The notes under the pieces: generated by a model
What the model was told of the DNA's origin: nothing
Seen by the model: the letters and a program-made list of their open reading frames with translations, nothing else
Database searches by the model: none
In this document: piece after piece, positions 5,863 to 47,288 of the stretch
Numbering within the stretch: position 1 is the stretch's first letter
Layout: the number at the start of each line of letters is the position of its first letter
IMG/VR virus record: IMGVR_UViG_3300007512_000042
Location: 1-58,656 of that record
Strand: one strand, 5' to 3'
Length of the DNA stretch: 58,656 nt
Source of the DNA: a virus
Program-made: the position numbers and the translations under genes

Positions 5863-5863
5863 G

Positions 5864-6034: not shown

Positions 6035-6036
6035 TC

Positions 6037-6113: not shown

Positions 6114-6118
6114 TCTAT

Positions 6119-6634: not shown

Positions 6635-7056
6635 AAGACAAACTTTTTTTATCACCAAAGATACAAGTTAAAACTGTGGATGGTTGCCGTGGGGTTTTCT
6701 GCGTAGAAGATATTAAGAAAGGGGAGGGCGTGGAAGAAAGCGGGCTTCTCCTTCTGGAAAATAACAAATGGGAGGACTGTGACAAAGAGCTTTTAAAGTG
6801 CGCTTTCCCATGGCCAGAGTTGCGCTCAGATTGGAAGGATTTTTGCGATGAACATGGAGGCATCTTGCCTTTTCATGCTACCCGTCCAGTTTTAGTGCTT
6901 GGGTACGGTATGTTTTATCGGCGCTCCCCCTCACCTAACATTAACCATAAGATAGAAAAAAAATTATTTACTTGCAATTTTGTAGCAACATGTGATATAA
7001 AAGAAGGGGAAGAATTGTTTTTACCTAAACCCAAAACCGAAGAAAACCATGAATGA
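6631..7056 (+). CDS. SET-domain protein (lysine methyltransferase-like)
   Basis: 141 residues, ATG overlapping the previous stop. The start GCRGVFCVEDIKKGEGVEE (about 18-36) matches the SET motif GxGVFA...I..GE. LGYGMFYRRSPSPNINHK (about 89-106) matches the YxxxxNHSxxPN segment, but NHS is replaced by RRS. CNFVATCDIKEGEELFLP matches the last F.A.RDI..GEEL motif. The fold is well supported; methyltransferase activity is uncertain because the NHS motif is degenerate. Target unknown. Confidence 0.72.
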   Translation: MKDKLFLSPKIQVKTVDGCRGVFCVEDIKKGEGVEESGLLLLENNKWEDCDKELLKCAFPWPELRSDWKDFCDEHGGILPFHATRPVLVLGYGMFYRRSPSPNINHKIEKKLFTCNFVATCDIKEGEELFLPKPKTEENHE

Positions 7057-10260: not shown

Positions 10261-12662
10261 TTACAGAAGATATTAATTTTACCCCTCGATCACAAAAGTT
10301 GCTTCAGGCAACAAAGCGTATTGCGCTAGCTTTTCGGCATGATGAGATTTTGTTGCCCCATTTATTCGCTGCTTTTTTTGACCTTAAACAAGCTAAGTCT
10401 CTTAGTATTGCAATTGATCTTGGGCTTGATTTAGATCAATTACGACATGTTTTGTATAATGAAATATTATCTACGCTTCCCAATCATAAGGTTGAACCTG
10501 TTGAGATAAAGCTCTCTCCCCTTATAGTATCTATTTTAAAACAGTCTACCGAAATAGCATCTGAATTTGGCCATCCTTGGGTAAGCGTGGATCACATTTT
10601 TTTATCTATTTTAGATAATTTCGAGAAATGGCCCTCTAAGCTTCATGCTTTATTTTCTTTTAACACTACAGAGCTTTTTACGGAGATCGTTACTTATCTT
10701 TCAGACGCTCAGCTTCCTACAGCCCCCTCTTCTACAGGGGCGCCATCGCCCTTTACAGAAGGGAAATCAGACTTTAAAGTCTTAGAAAAATATGCTAATA
10801 ATTTAACCGAAAAAACACTTCAAGGTAAAACTGATCCCGTTTTCGGCAGAGAGGAAGAAACCGCAAAGGTGGAAGATATTTTAAATCGCCGTAAAAAAAA
10901 TAGCGTTATCTTGTTGGGAGAGGCAGGTGTTGGAAAAACTTCTATTGTTGAGGGTTTAGTTCAGCGCATTGTGAGCGGTGAAGCACCTTTGTTTTTGCAA
11001 AATAAAATTATTTTTAGTTTAGATTTAAATACTATTGTAGCTGGAACTAAATACCGAGGAGAGTTTGAGGATCGTTTGAATAAAATTATAGAAGAGGCCA
11101 AGCATTCAAATGTGATTTTATTTATCGACGAGATTCATACTCTTATTGGGGCCGGAGACGCTGAAGGGTCTTTAGATGCTGCCAATATCCTTAAACCTGC
11201 TCTGTCTAGTGGAGACATTACAGTAATCGGGGCCACTACTTACACCGAATATCGTAAAAAACTTTTCAAAGACAAAGCCCTGCACCGTCGCTTTGACCAA
11301 GTCATAGTCGAAGAACCAACCAAAGAGGAAACTTTAAAGATTTTAGACCAAAAAAAGAAAATTTACGAATCTTTTCACTATGTTTCAATCACTTCTGAGA
11401 TATTGCAGGATATAGTTAACTATGCGGAGGAGTTTTTACCACAGAGCCAGTTCCCCGACAAGGCTATTGATTTACTTGATCTTATATGCAGCCATGTTAA
11501 GATAAAAAAAATTAAAAAACCACGATCCCTACGAGACCTTGAGGCGAAGTTTATTTCCAATCTGACAGAAAACAAAAATTCTGAAGAAGGACAGAATATG
11601 CTTTTTGAAAAGATTAAGTCTGATGCCGCCAAATGGAGCGACCAACTATCTCATAAAAGGTACAAGGTTTCAAAACGCGATCTTTTTGAAATACTTTCCC
11701 GCAAAACAGGTATTCCAGCTCACGATTTTGGACAATCTGTGTCTCAAAAATATATCGGTCTTGAAAATCAGCTTAAAAAACTGGTAGTTGGACAGCCAGA
11801 AGCTATTAGCTCTATTTCACGTTGTCTTTTACGACATAAAAGCGGGCTTCGAGACACCGCGCGCCCCATTGGTAACCTAATGTTTCTTGGCCCTACCGGC
11901 GTTGGCAAAACCTATGTTGCAAAATGTCTGGCCAAATATTTTTTTAAAAATAAAAATAATTTTATTCACCTTGACATGTCTGAGTTTTCTGAAAGTGCTA
12001 GTGTGTCTAAGCTGATAGGCTCTAGTCCCGGGTATGTGGGCTTTGACCAAGGGGGCGTTTTAGTAGAAAAAATTTCTCAGAACCCAAATTCAGTGGTTCT
12101 TTTTGATGAGATAGAAAAAGCTCACCCCAAAGTGCACCAAATTTTACTTCAAATCCTCGAGGAGGGGCGCCTTCACGATTCACAAGGAAGAGACGCCAAC
12201 TTTCGAAATAGCATCATTATTATTACTGGTAATATTGGCTCTCAGAAACTTATGCAAAAAGAATCTCTTGGTTTTGCAGATTCTACCGCGCAAAGCCGCG
12301 TAAGTGACGCTCGCCAAGAGCTTAAAAAAGTTTTGCCTCTTGAACTTATCAATCGATTTGATGATATTATCTTTTTCAAAGACCTGTCTGATTCCAGCCT
12401 GAAGGCTATTGTTCGCCACGAACTTCAACATCTTGTGGAGAACGCCACCAAAAGTGGCATTAATTTAGACTTTGATTCGAATATTGAGGATTTTATTGTA
12501 AATGATATTGGGGATTCGTCTTTTGGCGCTCGCCTCATCAAGAGAGTAGTTCAAAATAAGATTACCGACAAACTTTCTTTAAAATTTATTAAAAACCCTC
12601 ACATAAAAAACTATTCGGTCCGCTATAATAAAAAGCAGGACAAAATTGATGTAAAATTTTGA
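10257..12662 (+). CDS. Two-ring Clp ATPase (ClpA/ClpC-like)
   Basis: 801 residues, ATGA overlap with dnaE. A Clp-N-like helical domain (1-150) is followed by AAA-1 with Walker A GEAGVGKTS (about 220), Walker B LFIDEIH and an arginine-finger region HRRFD, then AAA-2 with GPTGVGKT (about 544) and VVLFDEIEKAH. The middle domain is too short for a ClpB disaggregase. L671-G672-F673 (KESLGFAD) sits where ClpC carries its VGF ClpP-docking loop, so the protein could dock host ClpP. The target may be host or phage proteins in early infection (inference). Last gene of the replication operon. Confidence 0.9.
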   Translation: MITEDINFTPRSQKLLQATKRIALAFRHDEILLPHLFAAFFDLKQAKSLSIAIDLGLDLDQLRHVLYNEILSTLPNHKVEPVEIKLSPLIVSILKQSTEIASEFGHPWVSVDHIFLSILDNFEKWPSKLHALFSFNTTELFTEIVTYLSDAQLPTAPSSTGAPSPFTEGKSDFKVLEKYANNLTEKTLQGKTDPVFGREEETAKVEDILNRRKKNSVILLGEAGVGKTSIVEGLVQRIVSGEAPLFLQNKIIFSLDLNTIVAGTKYRGEFEDRLNKIIEEAKHSNVILFIDEIHTLIGAGDAEGSLDAANILKPALSSGDITVIGATTYTEYRKKLFKDKALHRRFDQVIVEEPTKEETLKILDQKKKIYESFHYVSITSEILQDIVNYAEEFLPQSQFPDKAIDLLDLICSHVKIKKIKKPRSLRDLEAKFISNLTENKNSEEGQNMLFEKIKSDAAKWSDQLSHKRYKVSKRDLFEILSRKTGIPAHDFGQSVSQKYIGLENQLKKLVVGQPEAISSISRCLLRHKSGLRDTARPIGNLMFLGPTGVGKTYVAKCLAKYFFKNKNNFIHLDMSEFSESASVSKLIGSSPGYVGFDQGGVLVEKISQNPNSVVLFDEIEKAHPKVHQILLQILEEGRLHDSQGRDANFRNSIIIITGNIGSQKLMQKESLGFADSTAQSRVSDARQELKKVLPLELINRFDDIIFFKDLSDSSLKAIVRHELQHLVENATKSGINLDFDSNIEDFIVNDIGDSSFGARLIKRVVQNKITDKLSLKFIKNPHIKNYSVRYNKKQDKIDVKF

Positions 12663-25092: not shown

Positions 25093-26002
25093 AAAGCCAA
25101 TATCAATCAACCACTATTTTCCCGAAGGCGAAGATTGGCGAACCTATCCTGCGATCAAGGTAACCACTGCCGACGCGTTCCATTATTGCGCTATGCCCTT
25201 GGAATTCGCTATGTACCGTGGTATCGAAAAGGTGTGGAGCTGCGAGCTTGGCGACAACTCTTGGGCGACCTTCGATGACACTGAGATGTACAACGCCGTT
25301 TTAACTGATCGTAACGGGAATATAATAATGCAAAAAAAATGGAACCCTCTAGAGGATGGAGATTTTTTTTATCAGGCTCTTTATCTTTATTGCATGCGTC
25401 TCACCAGTGAGGGTAAAAAACCTAAAGGTATCGCGATAGGAACCCATGATGGAGCATTTGGAGAATGGGCCCCTGTAGTACAAGAGGATTTAACTGATGC
25501 TTGCTTGGTTGAGGCGTCGCAACCTCAATTTGCGAACCTTGTTCGCAATTATCAAAGGTACCCCAACGTTAAATTGGTCAACCAGTTGATTACCACAGAA
25601 GGGCAAGATATAGAATTTTTCGAAGGAGGAAATGGTTACACTAATTCTGTTGTAGAAAGAGTCATAAGAGACTGGGAAACGCAGGAAATCAAAAGCTCTA
25701 TAAGATCCTCTTGTTCAATTAATGATTTAATTGGCAATTACATATCCAGCGGAGAGCGACTAGATTGGCTTCATTTAGATGTTGAAGGATATGATGCGGA
25801 TTTGCTAAGAGCTCTCAAGCAACCGCTCCCGCCTTTTATTATTTTTGAAAATCACCCTTCTCACCACAAGGAAGAACTGGAGTATAATGAACAACAAAAA
25901 AAACGGATTCAAACTTATCTGAGGGATAGCGGGCACGACATAGTATCTTCAGGTGTTTCTTGCTTAGCAACCCTCCCCTATGAAGTTCAAAACATTAAAT
26001 GA
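25079..26002 (+). CDS. FkbM-family methyltransferase
   Basis: 307 residues. SAM-binding region GIAIGTHDGAFGEWAPVV (about 122), CLVEASQPQFANLVRNY, VKLVNQLITTEG, then LDWLHLDVEGYDADLLRAL and FIIFENHP are the ordered FkbM motifs. FkbM enzymes O-methylate sugars or polyketides; here a sugar is likely. The 80 N-terminal residues are an extra, unrecognised domain. Confidence 0.78.
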   Translation: MNGTKKPISINHYFPEGEDWRTYPAIKVTTADAFHYCAMPLEFAMYRGIEKVWSCELGDNSWATFDDTEMYNAVLTDRNGNIIMQKKWNPLEDGDFFYQALYLYCMRLTSEGKKPKGIAIGTHDGAFGEWAPVVQEDLTDACLVEASQPQFANLVRNYQRYPNVKLVNQLITTEGQDIEFFEGGNGYTNSVVERVIRDWETQEIKSSIRSSCSINDLIGNYISSGERLDWLHLDVEGYDADLLRALKQPLPPFIIFENHPSHHKEELEYNEQQKKRIQTYLRDSGHDIVSSGVSCLATLPYEVQNIK

Positions 26003-29000
26003 AAATTAAAGCACACTGCCCCTTTTTAGGTCGTACCGGGTATAATGCCCATGCTCGAGGCTTTTTTACTGCTTTAAGCGAGTTAATTGACTTGCGGGTT
26101 GACAACTACACATGGTGCGATGATACTGATAACTATCTTACCGACCATCAAAAACGTATTATTTCCGAGGTGACCTTAAGAGCTCCCGACGGAGAGCAAC
26201 AGTATCCTCCCGACTGGAAAGAAGAAATTGAAAGCTTTAAGTATGATGTAGACATTGTACTACACGAACATTGTCATCGACACTTCTGGCGCGAATACAC
26301 GAAGCCAAAAATTGCCTATACTGTATGGGAGACAGATCGGATGAATGATGATTTTTTTGAACGTCTTTTAGAATATGACCAGCTTTGGGTTCCATCTGAA
26401 TGGCAAAAAGAATGCGCTATAGGGCAAGGTTATCCGTGCGATCGTGTTAAAGTGGTGCCTGAGGCGGTAGAACCTGATTGTTTTCCCGATAATGCAATTG
26501 TGCCGGATGATTCAATATTTACATTTTGTGTGTTAGGGCGCTGGGACCACCGTAAATCAATTACTGAAATTTTGGAATGTTTTGTTGAGCTTTTTGGAAA
26601 CAATCCTAAGGTGCAGCTTATTGCCTCTATTGATAACCATTATGCTGAAGATGGCCTATCCACCGAAGAAAGGTTTAAAAAAATGGGGTGGGGTAATATA
26701 AAAAATATTATATTAAAATCTTTTCCCTCTCGCCCCGAGTATATCGATATTCTACGGCGCAGTCATGTTTTTTTATCCTGTGCGCGTTCGGAAGGATGGA
26801 ATATTCCCCTTATCGAAGCCATGGCATGCGGCGTACCATCCATCTATAGCGATTGCTCTGGCCAAACAGAATTTGCATCTGGGAAGGGTATTCCAATTCC
26901 TATCTTAGGGAAGGAGAAAGCACGCATTGGCCATGGTGGTATTGCTAGCAAATGGACCACTGAGATGCCGGGCCACTATTTTACCCCGGATTTTACACGT
27001 CTTAAAGAGAAGATGCGGTTTTGTATAGACAATTACGCTACGCTTAAGACCAGAGCTCTCAAGGAATCAGTAGAGATTAGATCGAAGTATACTTGGGCAA
27101 ACGCCGCCCTCATTGCGTTGAAGAACTTAGAAAACTTTGCCCCAAAAACCCAAAAGGTCAATGTATTAGTACACGCTGATGATGAGTATTTAAAATATGC
27201 TAATATATGTATAGAGTCTATTAGAAAACATTCTGGTTATAATGTTATTTTATATGGGTATGATACCCATTTTAAAGGAAAATTTATTCCCCCGAACACT
27301 GAAGTTCGGCGGTTGCGAAAATGGCCCCTATCAAAAAACGGTCGTAACTTAGGCGTCATGAGTTGCCGCGTTTCTATGTGTTTAGATGCGCTCGAGCAGG
27401 ATCCTAATGATTTATTTATTATGGTGGATTCCGATATGGTTGCAATGAAAGACCTGCGTCCCTTTTTTAGAGAGCAATTCGATAGATTAGAAGATTACCC
27501 CCTTTGCATTACCTATAAGCACGACAATCTTATTCACTCTAGGCTAGAGCCAGATGGCACCACAATCCAAAAAGGGCACGGTGATGAAGCGGCCTCTGTT
27601 TTTGGTGTTGAACCTAGAGGGGTTGCCTTCAATCATCCCATTGATTTTACTATTGGTCATGGGGTTGTTATTTTTGATAAAAAATCAGCGCCATTCTTCT
27701 CAGAGTTGCTGGAGCTTTCCTTACGGAGTCTGAAGGAAGAGCTTGTTGACCTCATTGATGATAAGTCTTTTGAATCAGAAAGAATCCACAATATTTTGAT
27801 GTGGAAATATGGCTTTACACAACACTTACCTCTTTCATGGGTTTCTAAGGATGAAGATAATGATTTTCTTCAACCAGACCTGAAAACGTACACGGACGCT
27901 GGATTTGATGTGGTTTACACTCATCAAGATAGACGTTCTTATGACATTGCCCCAGAGCAACTTTTATTTTTGCATGGCAGATCTTTTCCCCCTCTCTCTT
28001 CCCAATTAATGATTATCGCTCATCCTGACGACGAAACTATCTTTGGGTTCTCTGAGTTAGATGGCGACACTGATTGGAAAATAGTGTGTGTTTCTAGCGA
28101 TAATCGTGAGGATGATTTCCATAAGGCGATGGCATTTTATGGGATTAAAGACTACGAGATGTGGGGTTTTAACTCTTCGGTTATGGAAGCATTTCCTTCT
28201 GACTCATTAGATAAAAAAATAGAACATTTAATCAACAGCCAACAATGGAAAAAAGTAGTTACCCACAACCCATGCGGAGAGTATGGTCATATTCAGCATA
28301 AAAATGTTTTTGATTCGGTCAAAAAATATTGTGATAATTTTTATATTTTTTGCAAATCTGCCTCAATATTAGGGCCCCACGAACTTCAGCGCAAACAGGA
28401 GGCTTTAAAAATCTACAGCTCAGAGGATATCATCCCTCAACTCCAACAGCTTAACGGAGACTGGTATATTATGCCCGACATGTCTACCAACTATATAGAG
28501 CATGGTACTGTAGAATTATATAAACCAAGCAGACATACCACCCCTTTTATTCACTGTTGGGAAAAGACCCCCGATTATTCGCCGGTACCCTTTCATAAAA
28601 AAAAGGAGTTCCCCTCTTTTGTCCCAAAAATTAAAGTGCACTGTCCTTTTCTCGGACACACTGGCCTCAGCGCTTCCGCGCGCGGGACGTTCACAGCATT
28701 AAGCAGTATTGTTGATCTGCGCGTTGACAACTATACGTGGTGCGATGACCGTCACAACTACCTTACTGAACACCAGAAAAAGATTATTTCTGAAGTGACC
28801 TTGAAGGACCCTCAAGACAATTATATCGAGAAACAGCACCCACCTGAGTGGAAGAAAGAAATAGAAGATTTCCAATACGACATAGATATCGTGTTTCATG
28901 AGTACGATCACGACCACTTTCTTAAGAAGTATAGTAAGCCAAAAATTGCCTACACCGTATGGGAGACAGATTTATACGCTGCTCACTTTTTTAAAACACT

Positions 29001-30603
29001 TCTTGAATACGACGAATTATGGGTTCCATCTAAATGGCAAAGAGAATATAGCATAGCGCAGGGTTACCCGGCTAGTCGCGTTAAGGTAGTGCCTTTTGCT
29101 GTAGAGTCCGATTGTACCCCCAGTTCTGATGGTGAGTCTTTAGATGATTCAGTTTTTACCTTTTGTTTGTTTGGGCGTTGGGATTATCGCAAATCTACCA
29201 CGGAGATTATCCGATGTTTTGTTGAATTGTTTGGTAACAACCCAAAAGTACAACTAATAGCTTCTATTGATAATCCTTTTGCCCTTGATGGGCTTTCGAC
29301 GGAAGAGCGTAAAGCAAAAATGGGGTGGGGGGAGGTTGATAATATTATTCTTAAGTCTTTCCCCAATCGTAAAGAATATGTCAAAATTATTCAAGAAAGC
29401 CACGTATTTTTATCTTGTGCACGTGCAGAAGGGTGGAATATACCTTTATTAGAAGCGATGGCTTGCGGGACTCCTGCTATTTATAGTGATTGTTCTGCTC
29501 AACTAGAATTTGCCCAAAATAAAGGTATTCCGGTTCGTGTCTTAGGAAAGGAGAAAGCTGGAGTAGGTATAAGGGAAGTAGTCAGCCGATTTACTGCGAA
29601 CCTTCCCGGCCATTACTTTAGTCCGGATTACGAGCACCTGAAAAGCCAGATGCAGTATTGTATAGACAACTATAAAAGTTTAAAAACAACAGCCCTCAAG
29701 GAGTCCGCCGAACTTCGTCAAAAGTATACGTGGCAACATACTGCCCGCATTGCCCTTGACCATTTAGACAGTTTTTGTAAATCTCAGGCCATTAATATTC
29801 CCAAACCAAACCCTTCCCCTGCTTCATCCAAATTTATGAAAAAGAAGATATTCTTTCCCCTCATTACCTACGGAGGTATGTGTAATACTGAATTCGCTAT
29901 TGGTGCTATGGGTACCCTTTTGCGGATTCAGCAAAGTTCTGATATTGATATGGTGGTTTCTTCCATTGTCTTTGAGAGTTTGATTAGTCGGGCTCGAAAC
30001 GCTTCTGCTGCTTGGGCGCTTTCGTCAGATTATACCCATTTATTGTTTATTGATTCTGATATTCATTTTGAGGCAAACGATGTCTTCAAACTAATTGAAG
30101 CCGACAAAGATGTGGCGGTGGGTGTTTACCCTAAAAAATATTACAATCGCCACAAAATGGAATTTTTAGCCAAGGACGCACCTCATGTTTTTAACGATAA
30201 AAATGAATGGAGAGCCCTTGCGACGGATTTCTCTAGCGAATGCGGCGACAAGGCTTTAGATAAGGCACGGCAAGGCGAAATATTCACGGTAGATTATGCA
30301 GCCACAGGTTTCATGCTTATTAAAACTGATGTCTTTAAAAAAATTATTGACAAGCGCCCTGACCTGAAGTATACTAATGATGTTGATGGCTACATGAGTG
30401 CCGGAGACAACTTTTATGACTTTTTCACAGTGGGTGTAAATCAATCAAATAAAAAATATGAAAGCGAGGACTACGGCTTTTGCCAGCTCTGGCGTTCGGT
30501 CGGCGGACAAATCCACGTTATACCCTCTATCAATCTTACCCACACGGGAAGAAACCATTACCCCGGAAACATCCAAGCTCAAGCTCAAATGTTTCATAAA
30601 TAA
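25999..30603 (+). CDS. Giant five-domain glycosyltransferase/deacetylase (1534 aa)
   Basis: Domains in order: GT4 copy 1 (1-385; E-x7-E as EGWNIPLIE), GT-A domain with IMVDSDMVAM (about 385-660), PIG-L-type deacetylase with AHPDDE (about 674-679) and GHIQH (about 660-860), GT4 copy 2 (877-1260; EGWNIPLLE), and a C-terminal GT2-like domain with FIDSDIHF and VDYAATGFMLIKTDVF (about 1275-1534). The two GT4 copies are very close even at DNA level, so an internal duplication surrounds the other two domains. It could build an oligosaccharide stepwise and de-N-acetylate it. Start overlaps the FkbM stop by 4 bp. Confidence 0.85.
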   Translation: MKIKAHCPFLGRTGYNAHARGFFTALSELIDLRVDNYTWCDDTDNYLTDHQKRIISEVTLRAPDGEQQYPPDWKEEIESFKYDVDIVLHEHCHRHFWREYTKPKIAYTVWETDRMNDDFFERLLEYDQLWVPSEWQKECAIGQGYPCDRVKVVPEAVEPDCFPDNAIVPDDSIFTFCVLGRWDHRKSITEILECFVELFGNNPKVQLIASIDNHYAEDGLSTEERFKKMGWGNIKNIILKSFPSRPEYIDILRRSHVFLSCARSEGWNIPLIEAMACGVPSIYSDCSGQTEFASGKGIPIPILGKEKARIGHGGIASKWTTEMPGHYFTPDFTRLKEKMRFCIDNYATLKTRALKESVEIRSKYTWANAALIALKNLENFAPKTQKVNVLVHADDEYLKYANICIESIRKHSGYNVILYGYDTHFKGKFIPPNTEVRRLRKWPLSKNGRNLGVMSCRVSMCLDALEQDPNDLFIMVDSDMVAMKDLRPFFREQFDRLEDYPLCITYKHDNLIHSRLEPDGTTIQKGHGDEAASVFGVEPRGVAFNHPIDFTIGHGVVIFDKKSAPFFSELLELSLRSLKEELVDLIDDKSFESERIHNILMWKYGFTQHLPLSWVSKDEDNDFLQPDLKTYTDAGFDVVYTHQDRRSYDIAPEQLLFLHGRSFPPLSSQLMIIAHPDDETIFGFSELDGDTDWKIVCVSSDNREDDFHKAMAFYGIKDYEMWGFNSSVMEAFPSDSLDKKIEHLINSQQWKKVVTHNPCGEYGHIQHKNVFDSVKKYCDNFYIFCKSASILGPHELQRKQEALKIYSSEDIIPQLQQLNGDWYIMPDMSTNYIEHGTVELYKPSRHTTPFIHCWEKTPDYSPVPFHKKKEFPSFVPKIKVHCPFLGHTGLSASARGTFTALSSIVDLRVDNYTWCDDRHNYLTEHQKKIISEVTLKDPQDNYIEKQHPPEWKKEIEDFQYDIDIVFHEYDHDHFLKKYSKPKIAYTVWETDLYAAHFFKTLLEYDELWVPSKWQREYSIAQGYPASRVKVVPFAVESDCTPSSDGESLDDSVFTFCLFGRWDYRKSTTEIIRCFVELFGNNPKVQLIASIDNPFALDGLSTEERKAKMGWGEVDNIILKSFPNRKEYVKIIQESHVFLSCARAEGWNIPLLEAMACGTPAIYSDCSAQLEFAQNKGIPVRVLGKEKAGVGIREVVSRFTANLPGHYFSPDYEHLKSQMQYCIDNYKSLKTTALKESAELRQKYTWQHTARIALDHLDSFCKSQAINIPKPNPSPASSKFMKKKIFFPLITYGGMCNTEFAIGAMGTLLRIQQSSDIDMVVSSIVFESLISRARNASAAWALSSDYTHLLFIDSDIHFEANDVFKLIEADKDVAVGVYPKKYYNRHKMEFLAKDAPHVFNDKNEWRALATDFSSECGDKALDKARQGEIFTVDYAATGFMLIKTDVFKKIIDKRPDLKYTNDVDGYMSAGDNFYDFFTVGVNQSNKKYESEDYGFCQLWRSVGGQIHVIPSINLTHTGRNHYPGNIQAQAQMFHK

Positions 30604-30869: not shown

Positions 30870-31215
30870 CTCCACATTCCCCCCCTTGGATTGTGATCCC
30901 TGTGAGCTTCTCAAAGGGGACGAGAAAGCTTTCCTTATTGCTTCATTAGTATTGGTTGGCGAGCGCCCTGTTTTCTTTTATGATAAATTTAATTTATTTG
31001 CAGAGCCTTTTATTTCCCAGAATACTAAGAACCGCATTGAGTTTCCATTAAAACCAACAGCAGAGCTTCCTGATTATATTCCTACTTTTGGTTTTGGGGT
31101 CAACCACAATATTCTGATAGCCGAGGTGTGGCCTTGGCTTGACAAGGGTTGGCATCGTTGGTGGGAACATACGATAGTAGGTAGGAAAGATTTTACACTA
31201 AGTGTTTATGCCTAA
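30850..31215 (+). CDS. Hypothetical protein, GTG start (121 aa)
   Basis: Overlaps the previous gene by 20 bp and the carbamoyltransferase start by 8. Contains KGDEKAFLIASLVLVGERPVFF and a Trp-rich C-terminus WPWLDKGWHRWWEH. No family recognised. Confidence 0.55.
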   Translation: MAPTATNSTFPPLDCDPCELLKGDEKAFLIASLVLVGERPVFFYDKFNLFAEPFISQNTKNRIEFPLKPTAELPDYIPTFGFGVNHNILIAEVWPWLDKGWHRWWEHTIVGRKDFTLSVYA

Positions 31216-32818
31216 GTCTGTTTTAAGTTTTGCGGCCGCGCATCACGATTCTAATTTATCCGTGTATGTAAAGAATCAGCTCTATACTATAGAGCTGGAA
31301 AGAATTTACGGCAATCGATACTTGGCGTTTCAAACATGTTCAGAGGCCGAACAACAATCCCTTTTAATCTCTTTAAAGCAAATCCTAAAAGACAAAGGCC
31401 TTCTTGTACCTTCTTTTGATGTGGGTTTGTTTGATTGGGAAAGTACAGCAGAAACGATTCAAAAGTTTTGTGAGATTTTTAATGTTGTAAAAGTTTATCA
31501 AAAAGGAGATGACGCCACGTTCCATCATAGAGCTCATGCCGCGGGAGCTTTTTATTCCAGTGGTTTCGATGAAGCTTTGGTTTTTAGCTATGATGGAGGG
31601 GGGGAACCTGACGGTACTATTTGTGTCTACGACCTTAAAAAACCTGATCCGGATTTTACTCAACTTAACCCCTTTGCACTGCGATGTTTGACGACCAAAT
31701 ATTGTTCTTTATCTTCTTTTATGGAAGAAATTAGAGGTTCGCAAAAAAATCAAGATTATCTTCATCGACGTTTTGATCAAGTGGACCATGGGTGTTCGGG
31801 TAAGTTTATGGGATTATCGGCGTATGGTGTTTTTGATAAGTTTATGTTTGATGCCTGCAAAAAGTGGTTGCAGGTAGGTTCCCTTAATCCGTATGATTCT
31901 CATTTTTGGGGAGAGATAGGAACTCATTTTAAAAATGGAGTGCAGGGTACAACTTCCTATAATTGGGCTTTTAACATGCAACGTGCTTTTGAAGCTGATT
32001 TTTTAGAGCTTTTTGTTAAGTTTTTTGATAAGAGCAAACATAAAAACGTTTGCTTAACGGGAGGGGGTGCCCTCAATGTTGTGCTCAACGAGAGGCTGAG
32101 TAAGACTTATCCAAATGTTAATTTTTTTGTTTCCCCTTCTCCCGGTGATAGCGGTTTATCATCTGGCATGATAGTCCGTTATCTCAAAAACCCGCTTGTT
32201 TCCGAATCTATGTATACGGGCTGTGAAATTTTAGACAAAGGGGCTTTGCCATACATTTTAGATCATCGAGCGTGGAAGAAGGCTACCCCGAAACTCATAG
32301 CAAAGGAATTAACAAGAGGAAAAATTATTGGTATCTGTCGAGGTGACAGCGAAATAGGCCCCCGTGCATTAGGAAATCGAACTATATTGGCGGATCCCCG
32401 AAGTCACCAAGCTAAAGATATAATCAATGATAAAGTTAAATTTAGAGAATGGTATCGGCCGTTTGCTCCTGTATGTAAAGAAGATAAGGCATCAATTTTT
32501 TTCGAAACGTCTGATAATGCGTGCTACAAGTATATGTCTTTTAGCCCTCAGGTGCGAGAAAAATATCGAACAGTATTGCCCGCAGTGACCCATGTGGACG
32601 GATCCTCTCGATTACAAACCGTTTCTGCACAGCAAAATCAGTTTATCTATGACATATTAGATGAATTTGAGAAGCTGACGGGTATTCCCGTCTTGGTTAA
32701 CACTTCTTTTAATACTAAAGGAAAAGCTATTTTAACTCGATATCTCACCGCTATGCAAGTCTTAGATTCAACAGGACTTGACAGCGTGGTGCTAGAAGGC
32801 TATTATATTTATAAATAA
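31208..32818 (+). CDS. Carbamoyltransferase (NodU/CmcH family)
   Basis: 536 residues from ATG 31208 (GTG 31202 is the alternative). N-terminal Kae1-like part: FAAAHHDSNLSVYV, HHRAHAAGAFY, FSYDGGGEPDG, CLTGGGALNVVLNERL, SPSPGDSGLSSG. C-terminal YrdC-like part: GRSEIGPRALGNR-type sequence (GDSEIGPRALGNRTILADPR), YRPFAPV, LVNTSFN. It transfers carbamoyl from carbamoyl-phosphate, via carbamoyl-AMP, to a hydroxyl, probably on a sugar of the phage glycan. Complete length for the family. Confidence 0.9.
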   Translation: MPKSVLSFAAAHHDSNLSVYVKNQLYTIELERIYGNRYLAFQTCSEAEQQSLLISLKQILKDKGLLVPSFDVGLFDWESTAETIQKFCEIFNVVKVYQKGDDATFHHRAHAAGAFYSSGFDEALVFSYDGGGEPDGTICVYDLKKPDPDFTQLNPFALRCLTTKYCSLSSFMEEIRGSQKNQDYLHRRFDQVDHGCSGKFMGLSAYGVFDKFMFDACKKWLQVGSLNPYDSHFWGEIGTHFKNGVQGTTSYNWAFNMQRAFEADFLELFVKFFDKSKHKNVCLTGGGALNVVLNERLSKTYPNVNFFVSPSPGDSGLSSGMIVRYLKNPLVSESMYTGCEILDKGALPYILDHRAWKKATPKLIAKELTRGKIIGICRGDSEIGPRALGNRTILADPRSHQAKDIINDKVKFREWYRPFAPVCKEDKASIFFETSDNACYKYMSFSPQVREKYRTVLPAVTHVDGSSRLQTVSAQQNQFIYDILDEFEKLTGIPVLVNTSFNTKGKAILTRYLTAMQVLDSTGLDSVVLEGYYIYK

Positions 32819-32819
32819 G

Positions 32820-33041
32820 ATGAAAGAACAAATACTTAACACTATCGCCGTACATAACGTAAGCCAATACCACCATGCTAAAACTAACCTAGATAATTAC
32901 TTAGCTAACCCTGCTGCTATTGGAGAGCATCCTGACATTGTCGCTGAGGCGATTAAATTGGTGGAATCTATGGAGGCGGCAGAATCCAACCTTCAAACAT
33001 TAAACGCAGCCTATGGAACCGATTACACAACAGCAATGTAA
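32820..33041 (+). CDS. Small helical hypothetical protein (73 aa)
   Basis: Starts one base after the carbamoyltransferase stop. Amphipathic helices (AEAIKLVESMEAAESNLQTL). No domain recognised. Confidence 0.6.
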   Translation: MKEQILNTIAVHNVSQYHHAKTNLDNYLANPAAIGEHPDIVAEAIKLVESMEAAESNLQTLNAAYGTDYTTAM

Positions 33042-33222
33042 TGAATTTTATTTAAAAGACACCAAGTTTAGAGTCTTCGCTGACGATAATATCATTAGCG
33101 TCTATAATGTTCACCATCTTTCTCGCGCAGATATTAATGCGGCGATTCGCTATATGATACTAGAAGCTATTATTGAAATTGGTACCTATCAAGTAAACGT
33201 TTACTCAGAAAATTTTAAATGA
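33013..33222 (+). CDS. Small hypothetical protein (69 aa)
   Basis: Overlaps the previous gene by 29 bp in another frame and the next by 4. KFRVFADDNIISVYNVHHLSRADINAAIRYMI suggests an alpha/beta fold. Function unknown. Confidence 0.55.
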   Translation: MEPITQQQCNEFYLKDTKFRVFADDNIISVYNVHHLSRADINAAIRYMILEAIIEIGTYQVNVYSENFK

Positions 33223-33977
33223 GCAATATTTTAATTTCAACCATCGTTAGAAACCGCGGTGAAACCCTTCGTGGGTGGCATGATCAACTTGAATCGTTGG
33301 TTTGTTTAGACGAGCATAATCAATACTATTTAAGTATTTATGAAAATGATTCCGAAGACAATAGCGTCGCGCTGTTAAATTCTTTTGATTATTCTTTTTG
33401 TAAGGATTACTGTCTAAAAAGCGAAACGCTTAACACCAAATATTACTATCCTCCTTTTGAGGACTACGGAACGGAGCAAGGACACTTTAGTAAAGTTGAT
33501 AGAGTCAACAATTTAGCAGCAGCGAGAAATAAAAGTATTTTTGAGTGTGGTTTTTTGGGAGACACCGACTATGTTCTTTGCATAGAACCTGATATTAAAT
33601 ACAGCCCACAAGAATCGCTACCGAGCGTCATCAACAAGCAACACTACGATATTATTTCAGCTAAAAGCATTTTCACCAGCACTCGTTATGAGTCGCATCC
33701 TCTGTATGATGGGTGGGCTACCAGAAAAACCGAACATGAGGAAAGCTGGGATTTTTCCATATCTTTAGAGGGTATGATACCAGTTTGGTCAACGTTTAAT
33801 TGTTTTTGTATGTACAAGTCCCTTCCTTTTAAACAAGGGGCCGCTTTCGGAGGGTTTAATAAACGGCTAGATAAGCCTGACTGTGACACGGCTGTTATAT
33901 GTGAAGAGTTCCGTGCTTTAGGGTACCATAATATGGTAATGAATTGTGAGTTTGAGGTCTTACAAGAGCTTGAATAA
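33219..33977 (+). CDS. GT69-like (CAP59-type) glycosyltransferase
   Basis: 252 residues. RNRGETLRGWHDQLESL, YYLSIYENDSEDNSVALL, FSKVDRVNNLAAARNKSI and YVLCIEPDIKYSP match the alpha-1,3-mannosyltransferase CMT1/CAP59 pattern, with NDSEDN and EPD as likely nucleotide-sugar/metal residues. Acceptor unknown. Overlaps the aminotransferase-fold gene by one base (TAATG). Confidence 0.7.
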   Translation: MSNILISTIVRNRGETLRGWHDQLESLVCLDEHNQYYLSIYENDSEDNSVALLNSFDYSFCKDYCLKSETLNTKYYYPPFEDYGTEQGHFSKVDRVNNLAAARNKSIFECGFLGDTDYVLCIEPDIKYSPQESLPSVINKQHYDIISAKSIFTSTRYESHPLYDGWATRKTEHEESWDFSISLEGMIPVWSTFNCFCMYKSLPFKQGAAFGGFNKRLDKPDCDTAVICEEFRALGYHNMVMNCEFEVLQELE

Positions 33978-35143
33978 TGAAGTGGCCGTTAAATATTTCT
34001 CATTTTACTTTTTTAGATAGATTAAAAATTTGTTTGTTCTTTTTGAATCCTAAAAAAGTTTGGACGATGGGGGCAGAAGTAGAGTCTTTGGAAAAAGTGA
34101 TGGCCGAATACACTGGGGCTCGCTATGCGGTATTTACTTCTAGTGGTTCGACGGCGAATAGCCTAATAGCGATGAGCCTAAAAGACCTTAAAAAGGCTGA
34201 ACTTTGGTCTCATGATAAATGTGAAATTGTTTTTCCTTCTACTACGTGGGCCACGTCTGTCACCCCTTTTATAAGAGAAGGTTTCATTCCTAAATTTATA
34301 GACGTGTGTCCCCATGACCTCTCTCTTGATTTGCACCTACTAGAGCAGTATCTCTCAGAACACTCAAGAAAGGTAAGGTGTGTTTTCTTGACGTCGCTTT
34401 TAGGGTTTACCCCAAATATAGATGCAATAAAAGCAATATCCCAAAAGTACAAAGTGGAAGTGATGCTTGACAATTGTGAAAGCCATTTAGGTAGGTTTCA
34501 AAACGAAAACATAAATTCCTTTTTTACCTCTACTACCAGTACATATTTCGGGCATTTGGTTCAAAGCATTGAAGGAGGGTTTGTTTTCACCAACAGCAAA
34601 AAAGAGTACGAATATTTTGTTATGGCACGCAACCACGGTATGACGCGATCCTTGAAGAGCCCTGAGCCCTATTTAAATCCTTTGGTTGATCCGCGGTTTG
34701 ATTTTTACACCAAAGGAAGCAACTTTAAAAATTCGAACGTTAATGCGCTGATCTGTAACTTGAATTTTCAGAGAGTAGATAAGTACATTAAAGCGCGAGT
34801 ACATAAATATCAACTCTTTAAAGAAGGTATGGCTAAGATACTTGACTTCCCAGAAGAGTCCTCTTCTAAGATGCACGTTCCTTTTTCTTTACCAATAATA
34901 CCAAAAAAAGAATACCTTGATAAGGTACCTCTTTTCAAGCAATACTGCGAATCCCATTCCATCGAAATGCGCCCCCTCGTTTCAGGCAACCTTCTGACAC
35001 AAACAGCATTTAAAGAATATGGTAATGGGGCAGACTTTAAGTATAGCACCTTCCTACATGACCATTGTTTTTACATAGGGTTGCATCCAAGCTTAAAAGA
35101 TAGCAGCATTAGAAAGCTATGCAAAGAATTTAATAAAATTTAA
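33977..35143 (+). CDS. DegT/DnrJ-family sugar dehydrase (E1/ColD-like)
   Basis: 388 residues of fold-type I PLP enzyme: FTSSGSTANSLIAMSL, EIVFPSTTWATSVTPF, FLTSLLGFTPN, MLDNCESH. Where aminotransferases have a Lys that binds PLP, this protein reads YFGHLVQSIEGG, with His in the catalytic position. That is the mark of CDP-4-keto-6-deoxyglucose-3-dehydrase (RfbH/E1) and GDP-4-keto-6-deoxymannose-3-dehydrase (ColD), which make 3,6-dideoxysugars. Which nucleotide sugar is used is unknown. Confidence 0.82.
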   Translation: MKWPLNISHFTFLDRLKICLFFLNPKKVWTMGAEVESLEKVMAEYTGARYAVFTSSGSTANSLIAMSLKDLKKAELWSHDKCEIVFPSTTWATSVTPFIREGFIPKFIDVCPHDLSLDLHLLEQYLSEHSRKVRCVFLTSLLGFTPNIDAIKAISQKYKVEVMLDNCESHLGRFQNENINSFFTSTTSTYFGHLVQSIEGGFVFTNSKKEYEYFVMARNHGMTRSLKSPEPYLNPLVDPRFDFYTKGSNFKNSNVNALICNLNFQRVDKYIKARVHKYQLFKEGMAKILDFPEESSSKMHVPFSLPIIPKKEYLDKVPLFKQYCESHSIEMRPLVSGNLLTQTAFKEYGNGADFKYSTFLHDHCFYIGLHPSLKDSSIRKLCKEFNKI

Positions 35144-40858: not shown

Positions 40859-43261
40859 ATGATTACTAAACAGTCCGATATTAACCTCAAGCAATCGCAA
40901 GATTTCAAATCCTATACCTTTGGGATTAAGGATACAGGTCTTGCTCATATCTTCAATGTTCTGCGTAACCAGTTATACTCTGATAAGATTCTCGCAGTCA
41001 TTAGAGAATACTCTGCAAACGCTATTGATGCTCACGCCGAACTTGGCAAGCAATCAACCCCAATCAAAGTTACCCTTCCTAACAAACTAAACCTCAAGTT
41101 AAAGATTCGTGATTTTGGTCGAGGGTTGACCGAAAACCAGATTGGTGAGATTTACGCAATGTATGGAGAATCTACCAAGCGCGGCACAAACCAGCAAGTT
41201 GGTCAGTTGGGCCTTGGATGCAAGTCAGCATTTGCTTATGGTGATAATTTTGTAATTAACTCCTTTGTAGGTGGGAATGTTACTTCTTACAATGCTTTCA
41301 TTGACCCATCTCAAGTTGGTCGAATATCTAAATTGCATAGCAAAAAGACCAAGGAAAAGAACGGTATCGAAATTGAGATACCTGTCAATCAAGATGATGT
41401 TGACGCATTTAGAGAAAAAGCGATTGACCTTTTCCAGAATTTTGAGGTAAAACCCGATATAGAGGGGCAATCTATCCAAGATGCCATTAGTGATGGTGAT
41501 GTTCTTATCGGTAGCGATGACGGTTCATGGAAAGTGATTCGTAATTCATCGTCAGTTGCCGTGATGGGTAACATTCCTTATCCTATTGATGGGTATGCGA
41601 TGGATTTTGATTACCGAGAGGAAGCGCATCTACGAACTTTAGTAAATTTGGGGGTGCGCTTGCGTGTCGATATTGGGGATTTGGAGGTTGCGGCTAGTCG
41701 TGAAGCACTTCAATACACCAAGGCAACGAAAGAGTCTATACGCAAAAAGTTGCAAGAGATTGTGGATGCCTTACCTACTTTATTGGGCCAAAGATTTAGT
41801 GAATGTAAATCAATGTGGGAAGCAAAATGTCTCTATCAAGCGAGTTTTGGTTATGGTGGATTTGCTTACCATTTAAGTGATATTATGGATAAAAAGGGGG
41901 TCACTTGGGTAGATTCTCAAGGCAAATCCCACAAAATTACAGACGCTAGTTTTAAGTTTGCCGAAAACACTACGGGGGGTAGTGGATGCCTAATCTCTGT
42001 TTATGCGAAAAATCGCCACGGCAAGCGACGAGTTAAAAGCGATAAAGATTCTCGCGTTCACGCTTCTGGTGAGAAGATATTATTTGTAGAGGATGATAGA
42101 GATACCCATGTCGGTCGTATGAATCGTATTGCTCCCCTTTTGGAAAATTACGAAGGTCGTGCAGATGACGAGGACATGAAGGACAAACCTATCTACGATA
42201 AGATATATCTAATCCATTATGATTCCCCTGCAATCAAGCGCAATGTTTTAGAGAAGAATAAGTTTGATGCACCTACTGAAAAACTGTCGTCACTTCATCC
42301 AGTTAAGTTGACCGTGGTTTATCCACGCGACACTAGCGTAAAGCACGGTAACATAAATGCTGGAGGGGTTTCCAAGGCCAAGCATACTTCTAATGTTTTT
42401 GTTTTTGATACAGATTTCAACGGAGGTAACTGGCATCACCCTAAAAGCGATTTCTTTAAAATTCAAGAGGTAGAATTGGATAATATAAAAAATGGTGTCT
42501 ATGTAATTTTAGATAAATTTTATATTAAAAACCCCGAAGGTGCAGAGCAGCATCCGAACACAATCAAGGAAATGACTGCATCCTATAAAGGTTTAACAGG
42601 AAAAGACTTGCCCACGGTGTATGCCTTTAAAGTGAAACAAGAGGATGTTCCTAAAAAACAAAAAGGATGGACAGACTTACATTCTTGGTATAAAGCCGCA
42701 GTTAACAAGTATCTTGAAGATAACTCACTTACACAAGAGTTTGTTGATTCCGAAGCAGCGAGCAAACATCTAGGAAATAGTGACCATTGTGACTTTCATT
42801 TCCTGTTGCGTAAGATGGCCAAGTGCAAGGATGCGACAAACCATCGTAATCCCATTAAATCGGAGCCTTCTTTAGTGGAAGAAGCATTAAGCAAAATAGC
42901 ACTTGACAACTCTCCCTTAAAGAAGTATCTTAAAGCAGTTGAATCTATGGTTCCAACTCAAGCTCAAGACAAGCAGATGCGAAACATTCGTGAGCAGTTG
43001 GGAAAAGACTTCAAAAATTGGCACAAGGGCGATAAAGTTACTGTTTCGCATGACCTTGACAAGCTATATGCAAAAGTAATTAGAACCTACAAGATGCTCC
43101 ATTATTACGAGGACAATTTCTTGTGCGGTTGGGGCTACCAAGGTCGTGATTTCAAAAAATCTTGGAAAGATTTGACCAACTATGCGAATCTGGTGGATGC
43201 TACTTATGTTCGCACTAACATTTTTGAAGAAGCAAATAAAATTGAAGCAAAAAAACAATAA
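40859..43261 (+). CDS. rIIA: rIIA-like GHKL ATPase
   Basis: 800 residues. The N-terminal GHKL fold is clear: N-box REYSANAIDAH (E50, N54), G1 box DFGRGL (D85, G87), G2 box GQLGLGCKSAF (115-125). The rest matches the layout of T4-like rIIA with a long C-terminal region. In T4, rIIA is a membrane-associated protein needed to grow on lambda lysogens; the biochemical role is unclear. Followed directly by rIIB, as in T4. Confidence 0.88.
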   Translation: MITKQSDINLKQSQDFKSYTFGIKDTGLAHIFNVLRNQLYSDKILAVIREYSANAIDAHAELGKQSTPIKVTLPNKLNLKLKIRDFGRGLTENQIGEIYAMYGESTKRGTNQQVGQLGLGCKSAFAYGDNFVINSFVGGNVTSYNAFIDPSQVGRISKLHSKKTKEKNGIEIEIPVNQDDVDAFREKAIDLFQNFEVKPDIEGQSIQDAISDGDVLIGSDDGSWKVIRNSSSVAVMGNIPYPIDGYAMDFDYREEAHLRTLVNLGVRLRVDIGDLEVAASREALQYTKATKESIRKKLQEIVDALPTLLGQRFSECKSMWEAKCLYQASFGYGGFAYHLSDIMDKKGVTWVDSQGKSHKITDASFKFAENTTGGSGCLISVYAKNRHGKRRVKSDKDSRVHASGEKILFVEDDRDTHVGRMNRIAPLLENYEGRADDEDMKDKPIYDKIYLIHYDSPAIKRNVLEKNKFDAPTEKLSSLHPVKLTVVYPRDTSVKHGNINAGGVSKAKHTSNVFVFDTDFNGGNWHHPKSDFFKIQEVELDNIKNGVYVILDKFYIKNPEGAEQHPNTIKEMTASYKGLTGKDLPTVYAFKVKQEDVPKKQKGWTDLHSWYKAAVNKYLEDNSLTQEFVDSEAASKHLGNSDHCDFHFLLRKMAKCKDATNHRNPIKSEPSLVEEALSKIALDNSPLKKYLKAVESMVPTQAQDKQMRNIREQLGKDFKNWHKGDKVTVSHDLDKLYAKVIRTYKMLHYYEDNFLCGWGYQGRDFKKSWKDLTNYANLVDATYVRTNIFEEANKIEAKKQ

Positions 43262-43276
43262 TTGAAAGAACAAAAA

Positions 43277-44101
43277 ATGATACCGTATATCCTAACAGAC
43301 GATAGCCTAACCGTGGTGTTGAATGGAGAGTCCTACACCATGAACAAATCGAACCCCGCTTTCCGCAATGCTCTTGAAGCACTTGATAGCGATGATGCCG
43401 AGAAACTGGCAGCAATGTTCGACACACCCAAAGCAGTTACCGAGTATGTTGATGGCAACATCGAAGTGACAAGTGCGGGAGAGGTAAAGTATAAAGGTAG
43501 CGAGGTTCATAACCATGTGGTTGGTCGCATCCTGTCCTTTATGAGCGAGGGTTTACCTTACAAGCCTTTGGTGAAGTTCCTTGAGAAGTTGATGGAGAAT
43601 CCATCACGCCGCTCAACTGAAGAACTGTATCGGTTTTTAGAGCATCGACAAATGCCCCTGACTCCTGACGGCAATTTTCTTGCCTACAAGGGAATCCGTG
43701 AAGATTATACCGATTGGTATAGTGGCAAATTCTCCAATAAGGTTGGTGAAACCTTGGAGATGCCGCGCAATGGGGTGTGCGATGATGCCAACCACGGATG
43801 TTCTTCGGGTTTCCATGCGGGTAGTTTGGAGTATGCCGAGGGTTATGGTAACGGAGGTCATTTAATGGTTGTAGAAATCAACCCCAAGGATGTAGTGAGC
43901 GTTCCTCACGATTGCGACTGCCAGAAGTTACGCACCGCAAAATATAAAGTGGTTGACCACTATAAAACCAAGTTGGCAGATACCTTCTGCGACGATTATT
44001 ACGAGGATGACTATGATGATAATGAGTCTGGTGAGTCCTATGACGATGGTTACGATGCTGGCTACCAAGCCGCAATCGACAAAGTAAAAGCGAATCTCTG
44101 A
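43277..44101 (+). CDS. rIIB: rIIB-like protein
   Basis: 274 residues from ATG 43277 (in-frame TTG 43262 follows the rIIA stop directly). FLEKLMENPSRRSTEELYRFLEH, TPDGNFLAYKGIREDY, and CSSGFHAGSLEYAEGY, then an acidic C-terminus with YDDGYDAGYQAA match rIIB-like proteins found across large phages. Partner of rIIA. Confidence 0.88.
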   Translation: MIPYILTDDSLTVVLNGESYTMNKSNPAFRNALEALDSDDAEKLAAMFDTPKAVTEYVDGNIEVTSAGEVKYKGSEVHNHVVGRILSFMSEGLPYKPLVKFLEKLMENPSRRSTEELYRFLEHRQMPLTPDGNFLAYKGIREDYTDWYSGKFSNKVGETLEMPRNGVCDDANHGCSSGFHAGSLEYAEGYGNGGHLMVVEINPKDVVSVPHDCDCQKLRTAKYKVVDHYKTKLADTFCDDYYEDDYDDNESGESYDDGYDAGYQAAIDKVKANL

Positions 44102-45571: not shown

Positions 45572-45746
45572 CATACCAATTAGCTGGGACTGGAACAAGC
45601 AAGAAGAAGGAGAGGTTATTGTGGATATTCCCGAATCTAAATGCAAAGAGATAGTGCGTAACTTTTTAATGAACAAAGACTATCATCTTCGCAGAGAATG
45701 GCTCAAAACCAATGTGCCAGAAATCAATTTAAATGTTCCAGTATGA
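45561..45746 (+). CDS. Small hypothetical protein (61 aa)
   Basis: Begins MKIDIPISWDWNKQEEGEVIVD, at the ATG inside the end of the previous gene. One Cys near 33; no family. Confidence 0.55.
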   Translation: MKIDIPISWDWNKQEEGEVIVDIPESKCKEIVRNFLMNKDYHLRREWLKTNVPEINLNVPV

Positions 45747-45916
45747 AGAACTTTAAAAAGATTTTTTTATTCTTATCCTTATTTCTGTTCGCGGGGTGCA
45801 ACACAACCAAATGGGAGTGGTTGCCTCCGAAAGATAGAACGACCGCTATACCTTCGTTTCCTAAAGGGGATGAAGAACCCTCTGAAACGATTGATGTGCT
45901 GAAAGTATCTTTTTGA
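45743..45916 (+). CDS. Small lipoprotein (57 aa)
   Basis: ATGA overlap with the previous gene. Signal peptide KNFKKIFLFLSLFLFAGC with lipobox FAGC, then a Pro/Asp/Glu-rich mature part. A membrane-attached periplasmic protein; may be a spanin or superinfection-exclusion lipoprotein (inference). Confidence 0.7.
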   Translation: MKNFKKIFLFLSLFLFAGCNTTKWEWLPPKDRTTAIPSFPKGDEEPSETIDVLKVSF

Positions 45917-46248
45917 TGAAATATCTTATTACATTTTTTTTGAGTGTGCTTGCGGTATCTGGTGTTACCTTTGAGCCAGATATGGAGGTAAAAATCAAGG
46001 GATTGGTTTGCCCGTCTTGTGCGATTGGAATTAAAAAAAATTTCCTCAAGCACAAACCTCAAGTTAATGCGGTTAAATTCGATACTCGCAAACAAGTAGC
46101 ATTGGTAGATTTTTTTGAAAACGAAAACAAAAGAATTTATTGGCTTAAAAACGAACAAATTATCCAACTGGTTAAGGATGCTGGCTACGAAGTCACCTAT
46201 ATTAAGAGGTTAGACGGCAGCAAACCCAACCGATACAACACACCATGA
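45916..46248 (+). CDS. Secreted heavy-metal-associated (MerP-like) protein
   Basis: 110 residues. Signal peptide (KYLITFFLSVLAVSG), then MEVKIKGLVCPSCAIGIKKNFLKH with CPSC, then VNAVKFDTRKQVALVDF and LVKDAGYEVTYIK: a full HMA beta-alpha-beta fold. Periplasmic metal binding is expected; unusual in a phage. It sits directly after a lipoprotein and before the UvdE-like gene. Confidence 0.75.
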   Translation: MKYLITFFLSVLAVSGVTFEPDMEVKIKGLVCPSCAIGIKKNFLKHKPQVNAVKFDTRKQVALVDFFENENKRIYWLKNEQIIQLVKDAGYEVTYIKRLDGSKPNRYNTP

Positions 46249-47288
46249 TAACAGGACTAATCTTAACCAAACACCCCAAAGGTGCTTCCTTTAAAACTTT
46301 GAGTCGCGCCCGTTTTTTAGATTTAAACAAGCGTGAGTTCAAATTAGGAGAGGAAACTCTTTGTGACCGCATTGCCCACAACTTAAACATTACTCATTCC
46401 ATTATTGAGGGTTGTTCTAAACAAGGCATTCAACATTACAGATTGTCACCTCTTTTATTCCCACTATTGAGCGATAACTCTCTTGACCTTAATCTGGCTA
46501 CCATTAAAGGGGCAAATCAGATTTTAAGTCTTATTAAAAAAATTGGAGCAACCGCAATAGAGAATAACATTAGCCTTTCCGCTTGCCCCCCCATTCTTAC
46601 TGCTACCTCATCAGAAGGATTAGCAAGTGATAATAGCGATAGCATCGTTAAGACGGTGAAGCAGTTAGACTTTTATGCCCACCTCTTTGACCTTATGGGG
46701 TTTCCTGACGACTATTCAAACCCAATCCATGTTTACCCTCACATGGCTTCTAAAGATGCCTCACAGAGCCGTTTAGAGGGCATTGTAGACCGTTTTTATG
46801 ACGGTATGGTCAGATGCAATGATAGCGTGATTAAGCGTTTGGTTGTGATGAATGAACGAAACTCTTGCTGGAATTGCATGAACCTCTTTGTTTACTTTCA
46901 TCAGTATATGGGGCATAAACATCGCCACATCATGCCATTGAGTTATGATAGCTTGCATGACGAAAAAAATGGCTCTGCCCTACAAGGCAATACGGTAACT
47001 GTTGCTCAAAATATAGATGCTTTCGCAAAGACTTGGCCCGATGATATTACCCCTGTTTTTCGGTGGAGTCACGATACCGATGATGCTCCCGACTATGAAA
47101 GAGACATTGTTTGGGAGTCGGAGAGAAAAGGCTTTACAATCGCATCTCAATCAAGTAAAGTAGTTACCAGCAAGAAGAAGGCAACCAAAAAGAAACCTCA
47201 AGCCAAACCAAGTGTTAAAAAAATTCTTAAAAAAATAGAAAAAACTGTGCCGAAATCTACAACATTCAATCACCTATATGGAGAATAA
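46245..47288 (+). CDS. UV-damage endonuclease UvdE-like
   Basis: 347 residues, ATGA overlap. LGEETLCDRIAHNLNITHSII and GIQHYRLSPLLFPLLSD match the UvdE N-terminus; RLVVMNERNSCW and IMPLSYDSLHDE match later metal-ligand strands (ENE, DxxH). The usual SxHPGQ segment is replaced by SACPP, so some metal ligands differ. UvdE nicks 5' of UV photoproducts. C-terminal Lys-rich tail KKKATKKKPQ is extra. Confidence 0.66.
   Translation: MITGLILTKHPKGASFKTLSRARFLDLNKREFKLGEETLCDRIAHNLNITHSIIEGCSKQGIQHYRLSPLLFPLLSDNSLDLNLATIKGANQILSLIKKIGATAIENNISLSACPPILTATSSEGLASDNSDSIVKTVKQLDFYAHLFDLMGFPDDYSNPIHVYPHMASKDASQSRLEGIVDRFYDGMVRCNDSVIKRLVVMNERNSCWNCMNLFVYFHQYMGHKHRHIMPLSYDSLHDEKNGSALQGNTVTVAQNIDAFAKTWPDDITPVFRWSHDTDDAPDYERDIVWESERKGFTIASQSSKVVTSKKKATKKKPQAKPSVKKILKKIEKTVPKSTTFNHLYGE

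Follow-up and report, generated by a model that had tools for sequence, protein, structure and literature searches.

An apparently exported heavy-metal-associated (HMA) domain protein with a predicted metal site, encoded in a phage genome and in related phage contigs

The stretch of DNA analysed here (the window), a virus record with a length of 58,656 bases, is identified as phage by PHROG matches to rIIA, rIIB, a DnaB-like helicase, a phage DNA polymerase and a baseplate-wedge protein. A gene for a small protein with a heavy-metal-associated (HMA) domain is located within a plus-strand gene run behind the rIIA/rIIB genes. The features of this region are:

40859..44101, plus strand: rIIA-like and rIIB-like genes (PHROG matches), upstream of the HMA gene in the same-strand gene run
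45743..45916, plus strand: small lipoprotein gene (ORF reading), with lipobox LFAGC by eye and tail DVLKVSF
45916..46248, plus strand: gene for an exported HMA protein of 110 amino acids (ORF from ATG to TGA), export predicted
45916..45966, plus strand: hydrophobic leader at the N-terminus (residues 1-17), read by eye as a signal sequence
46009..46020, plus strand: CPSC motif (Cys32-Pro-Ser-Cys35), a predicted metal site where helix 1 of the model begins (sequence, AlphaFold2 model)
46225..46245, plus strand: C-terminal tail PNRYNTP, outside the HMA domain (alignment with relatives)
46245..47288, plus strand: UvdE-like UV endonuclease gene (Pfam UvdE, 42.7 bits; cut-off 24)

The stop codon of the lipoprotein gene shares its last base with the ATG of the HMA gene, and the HMA stop codon is overlapped by 4 bases by the start of the UvdE-like gene. 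Between positions 43000 and 48600, 23 promoter-like sites were observed (14.7 expected, sd 4.0) together with three terminator-like sites, all on the minus strand (4.8 expected); no promoter-like or terminator-like site in this interval could be attributed to the HMA gene. A near copy of this region is present in contig L001, with 99.995% identity across 20,330 bases. Homologues of the UvdE-like ORF (46245-47288) were also found in L036 and L042, making three phage contigs in all. Elsewhere in the window, positions 25999-30603 encode a 1534-amino-acid protein with glycosyltransferase domains, a PIG-L-type deacetylase and a weak Anp1 match under the cut-off; Nol-like carbamoyltransferase and aminotransferase genes at 31202-35143 perhaps form a sugar-modifying cluster, and 10257-12662 encodes a ClpB/ClpA-type double AAA protein with a Clp_N match, here in a phage.

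An earlier note on this DNA had described the protein as a complete HMA fold with a CPSC motif and a signal peptide. Pfam HMA (PF00403) aligned with the window protein over profile positions 2-62 of 62 at 21.9 bits (E 0.00024), under the gathering cut-off of 24.8 bits. This cut-off is passed by the relative L002 (26.6 bits), which is 51% identical to the window protein, and by the records of L004, L005 and L006, and HMA is matched at E<=0.01 by 36 of the 38 rows in the alignment, which comprises 36 viral and 2 cellular sequences. The AlphaFold2 model, made from the 38 aligned sequences, has a mean pLDDT of 82.8 with block means of 87-95 across residues 21-100. Its elements (strand 23-28, helix 33-46, strands 50-56 and 61-66, helix 79-88, strand 92-98) follow the beta-alpha-beta-beta-alpha-beta order of HMA domains, and CPSC opens helix 1, which starts at residue 33. 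Foldseek returned 22 PDB entries at E<=0.001, and every one carries the title of an HMA-domain protein. The closest solved folds by VIA-align are the CopZ/Atx1 copper chaperones 2xmv, 2xmt, 4a47 and 6ff2, the best being Atx1 2xmv (Z 9.8, 63 residues, 1.4 A); MerP 1osd aligned with Z 8.2 over 71 residues at 2.9 A. The window protein thus has both the fold of the HMA superfamily and the CxxC in the loop preceding helix 1, and model, Foldseek and VIA-align agree with the earlier description, Cys32 and Cys35 being in place. PHROGs assigned no family to the protein, BFVD gave no fold match at E<=0.001 and no PADLOC match was obtained.

A single-sequence scan of IMG/VR with the window protein returned two loci and a two-row alignment five. 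A DNA pattern around GLVCxxC returned 33 stretches, two of which are cut by contig or locus ends, and all 33 translate to an HMA-type ORF. Because this pattern itself demands the cysteines, IMG/VR was scanned a second time with an alignment (A5) of the region behind the cysteines, which gave 35 loci. The union of the pattern and A5 scans is 48 contigs and neighbour-gene scans added three, resulting in 51 IMG/VR contigs, a count that includes the near twin of the window, some near-duplicates and some pairs identical in HMA protein. The HMA-bearing contigs differ in gene neighbourhood, and the longest measures 200,819 bases. When prokaryote genome contigs were scanned with the two-row alignment, none of 84 candidate stretches was confirmed; the GLVCxxC DNA pattern had three matches in the prokaryote genome collection, of which two are real. 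L045 was rejected as a cellular relative, as it is a chance match on the strand opposite an ORF that reads by eye as acyl-CoA dehydrogenase-like.

The earlier note had proposed a search of related phages and named loss of the cysteine pair as the outcome that would speak against its reading. A CxxC was found upstream of the A5 match in 35 of 35 relatives, with a query that does not contain the cysteine region, and no such loss was seen; in the window protein Cys32 and Cys35 are the sole cysteines. Purifying selection is read from pairs of relatives: NG86 dN/dS was 0.045-0.21 in the 12 of 17 chosen pairs with finite dS, and dS was not finite in the other five, including both pairs with the window gene, for which dS is saturated and dN/dS undefined. 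The N-terminus of the window protein, MKYLITFFLSVLAVSGV, reads by eye as a short signal sequence, so that periplasmic export is predicted and the signal peptide of the earlier note is supported as an export-type leader. A plain leader is present in most rows and the N-terminus is variable. Lipobox-like starts were seen by eye in L013, L025, L029, L032, L038 and L039 (a strict pattern marks only L029 and L038), and L002, L019 and L030 have a longer N-terminal membrane segment. Export is doubtful for six close relatives (L071, L072 and L075-L078), because their leaders are very short and five of them lack a positive charge. At the other end of the protein, a tail RYNxP closes 27 of the 36 phage rows, compared to none of the 23 cellular rows.

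Many of the HMA relatives sit behind a gene for a membrane coiled-coil protein. At 24 of the 53 loci of this gene an HMA gene follows, at 26 there is none despite sufficient space (608 bases or more), and three loci are cut short. Since the HMA search pattern demanded both cysteines, the genes behind the coiled-coil gene were listed directly, and those in HMA-less loci are of other kinds. Two of 25 checked HMA-less coiled-coil contigs (that of L154 left out) carry an HMA gene elsewhere, as found with a pattern demanding both cysteines. The gene found 64 bases after the HMA gene in L071 and L078 comes, in L128, L129 and L139, 6 bases after the coiled-coil gene. Its presence or absence at similar loci leads us to regard the HMA gene as accessory, with gains and losses, and the coiled-coil protein as independent of it. 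The 26 loci with room and no HMA gene led us to abandon the idea of a fixed functional pair of the HMA protein and the upstream coiled-coil protein. The lipoprotein family of the window was found at eight loci, four of which have an HMA gene close behind.

The HMA gene is near a DUF1501 gene in L004, near a DUF932 gene in L005 and, by eye, among T4-like genes in L017. Among about 19 viral loci examined for their neighbours, none showed a metal gene, so that nothing in the phages points to a metal; neighbours vary among the phages, and therefore no pathway is implied. An exported protein of about 230-260 amino acids, GspC/PilP-like by eye, is encoded near the HMA gene in L005, L079, L036 and L041 (the L079 copy has no Pfam match), and a ferredoxin-like protein, also by eye, in L013, L023 and L025. 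The DUF1501 protein of L004 is encoded at 8022-9305, and a DUF1552 protein is encoded behind the coiled-coil gene in L111. Proteins of these two families are typical of planctomycetes and verrucomicrobia, which gives a hint, and only that, of a planctomycete or verrucomicrobial host. The 170 kb phage contig L078 encodes on its minus strand (5194-6786) ankyrin repeats fused to an adenylate/guanylate cyclase-like domain, for which Pfam Guanylate_cyc gave 20.9 bits, just under the cut-off of 21.9.

The HMA gene itself does not tell the host, because matches at E<=1e-15 occur in 5 of 387 genomes of the phylum of an Akkermansiaceae MAG and 5 of 398 of that of a Kordiimonadales MAG; at E<=1e-8, 17 of 145 genomes of the family of the Akkermansiaceae MAG have a match. 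The nearest cellular relatives found, scored with the phage profile, are those of L047 (76.5 bits) and L097 (67.4 bits). By eye, 11 of 22 cellular loci (L046, L047, L048, L083, L093, L094, L096-L099 and L101) are near a CsoR/MerR regulator, a CCALP membrane protein or a metal ATPase, and the remaining 11 have no metal gene within the few kb read. The regulators of L047 and L096 are confirmed by Pfam as CsoR (PF02583) and that of L099 as MerR, and a Marinobacter plasmid locus has a P-type ATPase and merR near the HMA gene. CCALP (MerT-like) membrane proteins are encoded in five cellular loci; that of L047 has no Pfam match and for that of G151, encoded between a pair of HMA genes, Pfam MerT gave 26.1 bits (E 1.6e-5), short of its cut-off of 32.9. 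In this Kordiimonadales MAG (G151:C149, loci L092 and L093) two exported HMA genes thus flank a distant MerT relative, and a canonical MerT is present elsewhere. A CCALP profile gave no match in 28 viral records and did match one of the two controls from cells. Likewise, Pfam MerT at E<=0.1 had no match in the window and 27 further viral records, which may be fragments, and matched one of two cellular genomes used as control (G151, 96.6 bits). An unrooted tree of 59 rows gathers 30 of the phage rows into a single group (97/98); the other six (L004, L040, L013, L029, L032 and L038) are placed with the 23 cellular rows. The tree is based on 86 columns, with many forks open and some long branches meeting; it would be compatible with more than one capture of the HMA gene from cells, which is possible.

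Taken together, the window protein may well be a phage-borne periplasmic or envelope metal carrier, a reading that we hold tentatively. Metal binding is the most likely activity we infer for the phage HMA protein, because the cysteines are kept in all relatives tested, the fold is that of HMA domains, relatives are under purifying selection and the cellular kin are in part linked to metal regulators. The best reading is an exported carrier or buffer of a soft metal, captured from bacteria and adapted by phages, for which a metal, a partner and a benefit can be proposed. The metal is probably Cu(I), given that copper carriers make up the nearest folds and models; Hg(II) or Zn(II) could take its place. 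After export, Cys32 and Cys35 would hold the soft metal ion, most likely Cu(I), and the protein would buffer it or hand it on to a transporter in the host membrane or to a host enzyme. Such a buffering or delivery role is suggested since no transporter of the phages' own was found in the viral records searched. The RYNxP tail is a candidate docking element and may aid docking of the HMA protein. Copper is required by respiratory enzymes and toxic in excess; the benefit to the phage could be that copper is kept from halting the infected cell before lysis, or that copper enzymes are kept supplied. The earlier note had suggested protection of the infected cell, theft of copper or zinc, or signalling through the envelope, which are candidate roles. 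Against the carrier reading count the score of the window's own domain below the Pfam cut-off, the lack of metal genes in the viral loci read and in half of the cellular ones, the undefined dN/dS of the pairs with the window gene, and the doubtful export of the six relatives with very short leaders.

The main rival that remains is a decoy or inhibitor, whose HMA fold would dock on a host metal transporter or other envelope protein and block it, metal binding being secondary; metal traffic would then be stopped, or a receptor closed to later phages. The tail, which is conserved, specific to the phages and separate from the metal site, suits this role, as do the membrane or lipoprotein anchors of some relatives, the place of the gene behind rIIA/rIIB and the failure of both the CCALP profile and Pfam MerT to find an own transporter in 28 viral records. 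A pure docking domain would have no need for both cysteines, however, yet they are kept in 35 of 35 relatives, and the missing PADLOC match also argues against it, so that we regard this explanation as unlikely. Conservation of the CxxC throughout, in an apparently exported protein, would also fit a thiol-disulfide protein whose exposed cysteines oxidise or reduce envelope proteins with no metal carried. This is improbable, as the fold is that of HMA metal carriers and half of the cellular relatives read adjoin metal genes.

Quite improbable is a part in lysis or in the virion, in which the upstream membrane protein or lipoprotein and the HMA protein would make up an envelope-spanning (spanin-like) or structural pair. 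The upstream lipoprotein does have weak PHROG spanin matches (E 0.0092, 0.01 and 0.29, for that protein only) and many relatives come after the membrane coiled-coil gene, but a lipobox was seen by eye in only four of the 36 aligned phage rows, so that most cannot be outer-membrane spanins, the coiled-coil gene does without the HMA gene at 26 of its 53 loci, and the recognised cell-wall hydrolase of L078 is about 7.4 kb away. That the HMA gene is a passenger from the host, useless to the phage, could account for its presence or absence between otherwise similar loci; the low dN/dS among relatives, their wide spread and the shared tail make this very improbable. The carrier reading remains the one we prefer. 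A broader version of it, in which several phage lineages share a phage-adapted exported metallochaperone, the RYNxP tail addresses one host envelope protein and the virus controls periplasmic copper or another soft metal during infection, is doubtful. If true, it would represent viral metal management that is undescribed in the literature searched, in phages without a relative of the HMA gene among 50,697 annotated phage records. The relatives carried by about fifty virus contigs suggest that some viruses handle metals in the host cell envelope, and a widespread, conserved, apparently exported phage protein with a metal site would make viral control of envelope metals directly testable.

In tblastn searches of these annotated records with five family members (window, L002, L004, L031 and L032) no match was found, so that GLVCxxC...RYNxP marks a family none of whose five queried members has a counterpart there. 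No such phage HMA protein or family was found in the open-licence PMC literature among the matches listed: PMC9405923 names a copper chaperone through a cited work about a giant-virus dismutase, and PMC11128244 concludes that viral genomes are not main vectors of metal resistance genes at the studied site. Both results are in line with the statement in the earlier note that metal carriers are not a known phage function. Two cellular HMA queries did reach phage-filed records, one a single merA-type record and the other 16 records, two annotated as metal ATPases and 14 without annotation. Metal-resistance genes in such records are likewise metal genes in phage collections, but their HMA domains lie in a merA-type gene, P-type ATPases or unannotated records, and no stand-alone exported HMA protein of the window's family was matched.

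Among known systems, MerP (TIGR02052) resembles the window protein in size, in having one HMA domain preceded by an export-type leader, and in the GxxCxxC ahead of helix 1. The earlier designation as MerP-like therefore holds for the fold, but does not extend to MerP identity: the window protein scores 17.5 bits with the NCBI model, which requires 92.55, its record has no MerT match, and the phage protein has the additional C-terminal RYNxP tail. CopZ/Atx1 proteins are the nearest solved folds and a CopZ model gives the best NCBIfam E-value (8e-06), but the window protein reaches only 25.9 of 95 and 20.9 of 85 bits with the CopZ models (NF033794 and others) and has a leader and a tail. CopZ/Atx1 copper chaperones are cytoplasmic. 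The nearest cellular kin found come from Verrucomicrobiota and Pseudomonadota; they are exported HMA proteins encoded near CsoR/MerR or CCALP genes (L046, L047, L094, L096-L099) and differ in lacking the RYNxP tail and in having CCALP/MerT neighbours of the kind not found in the 28 viral records. The HMA domain is well known, and the phage family with the RYNxP tail is a new variant of it.
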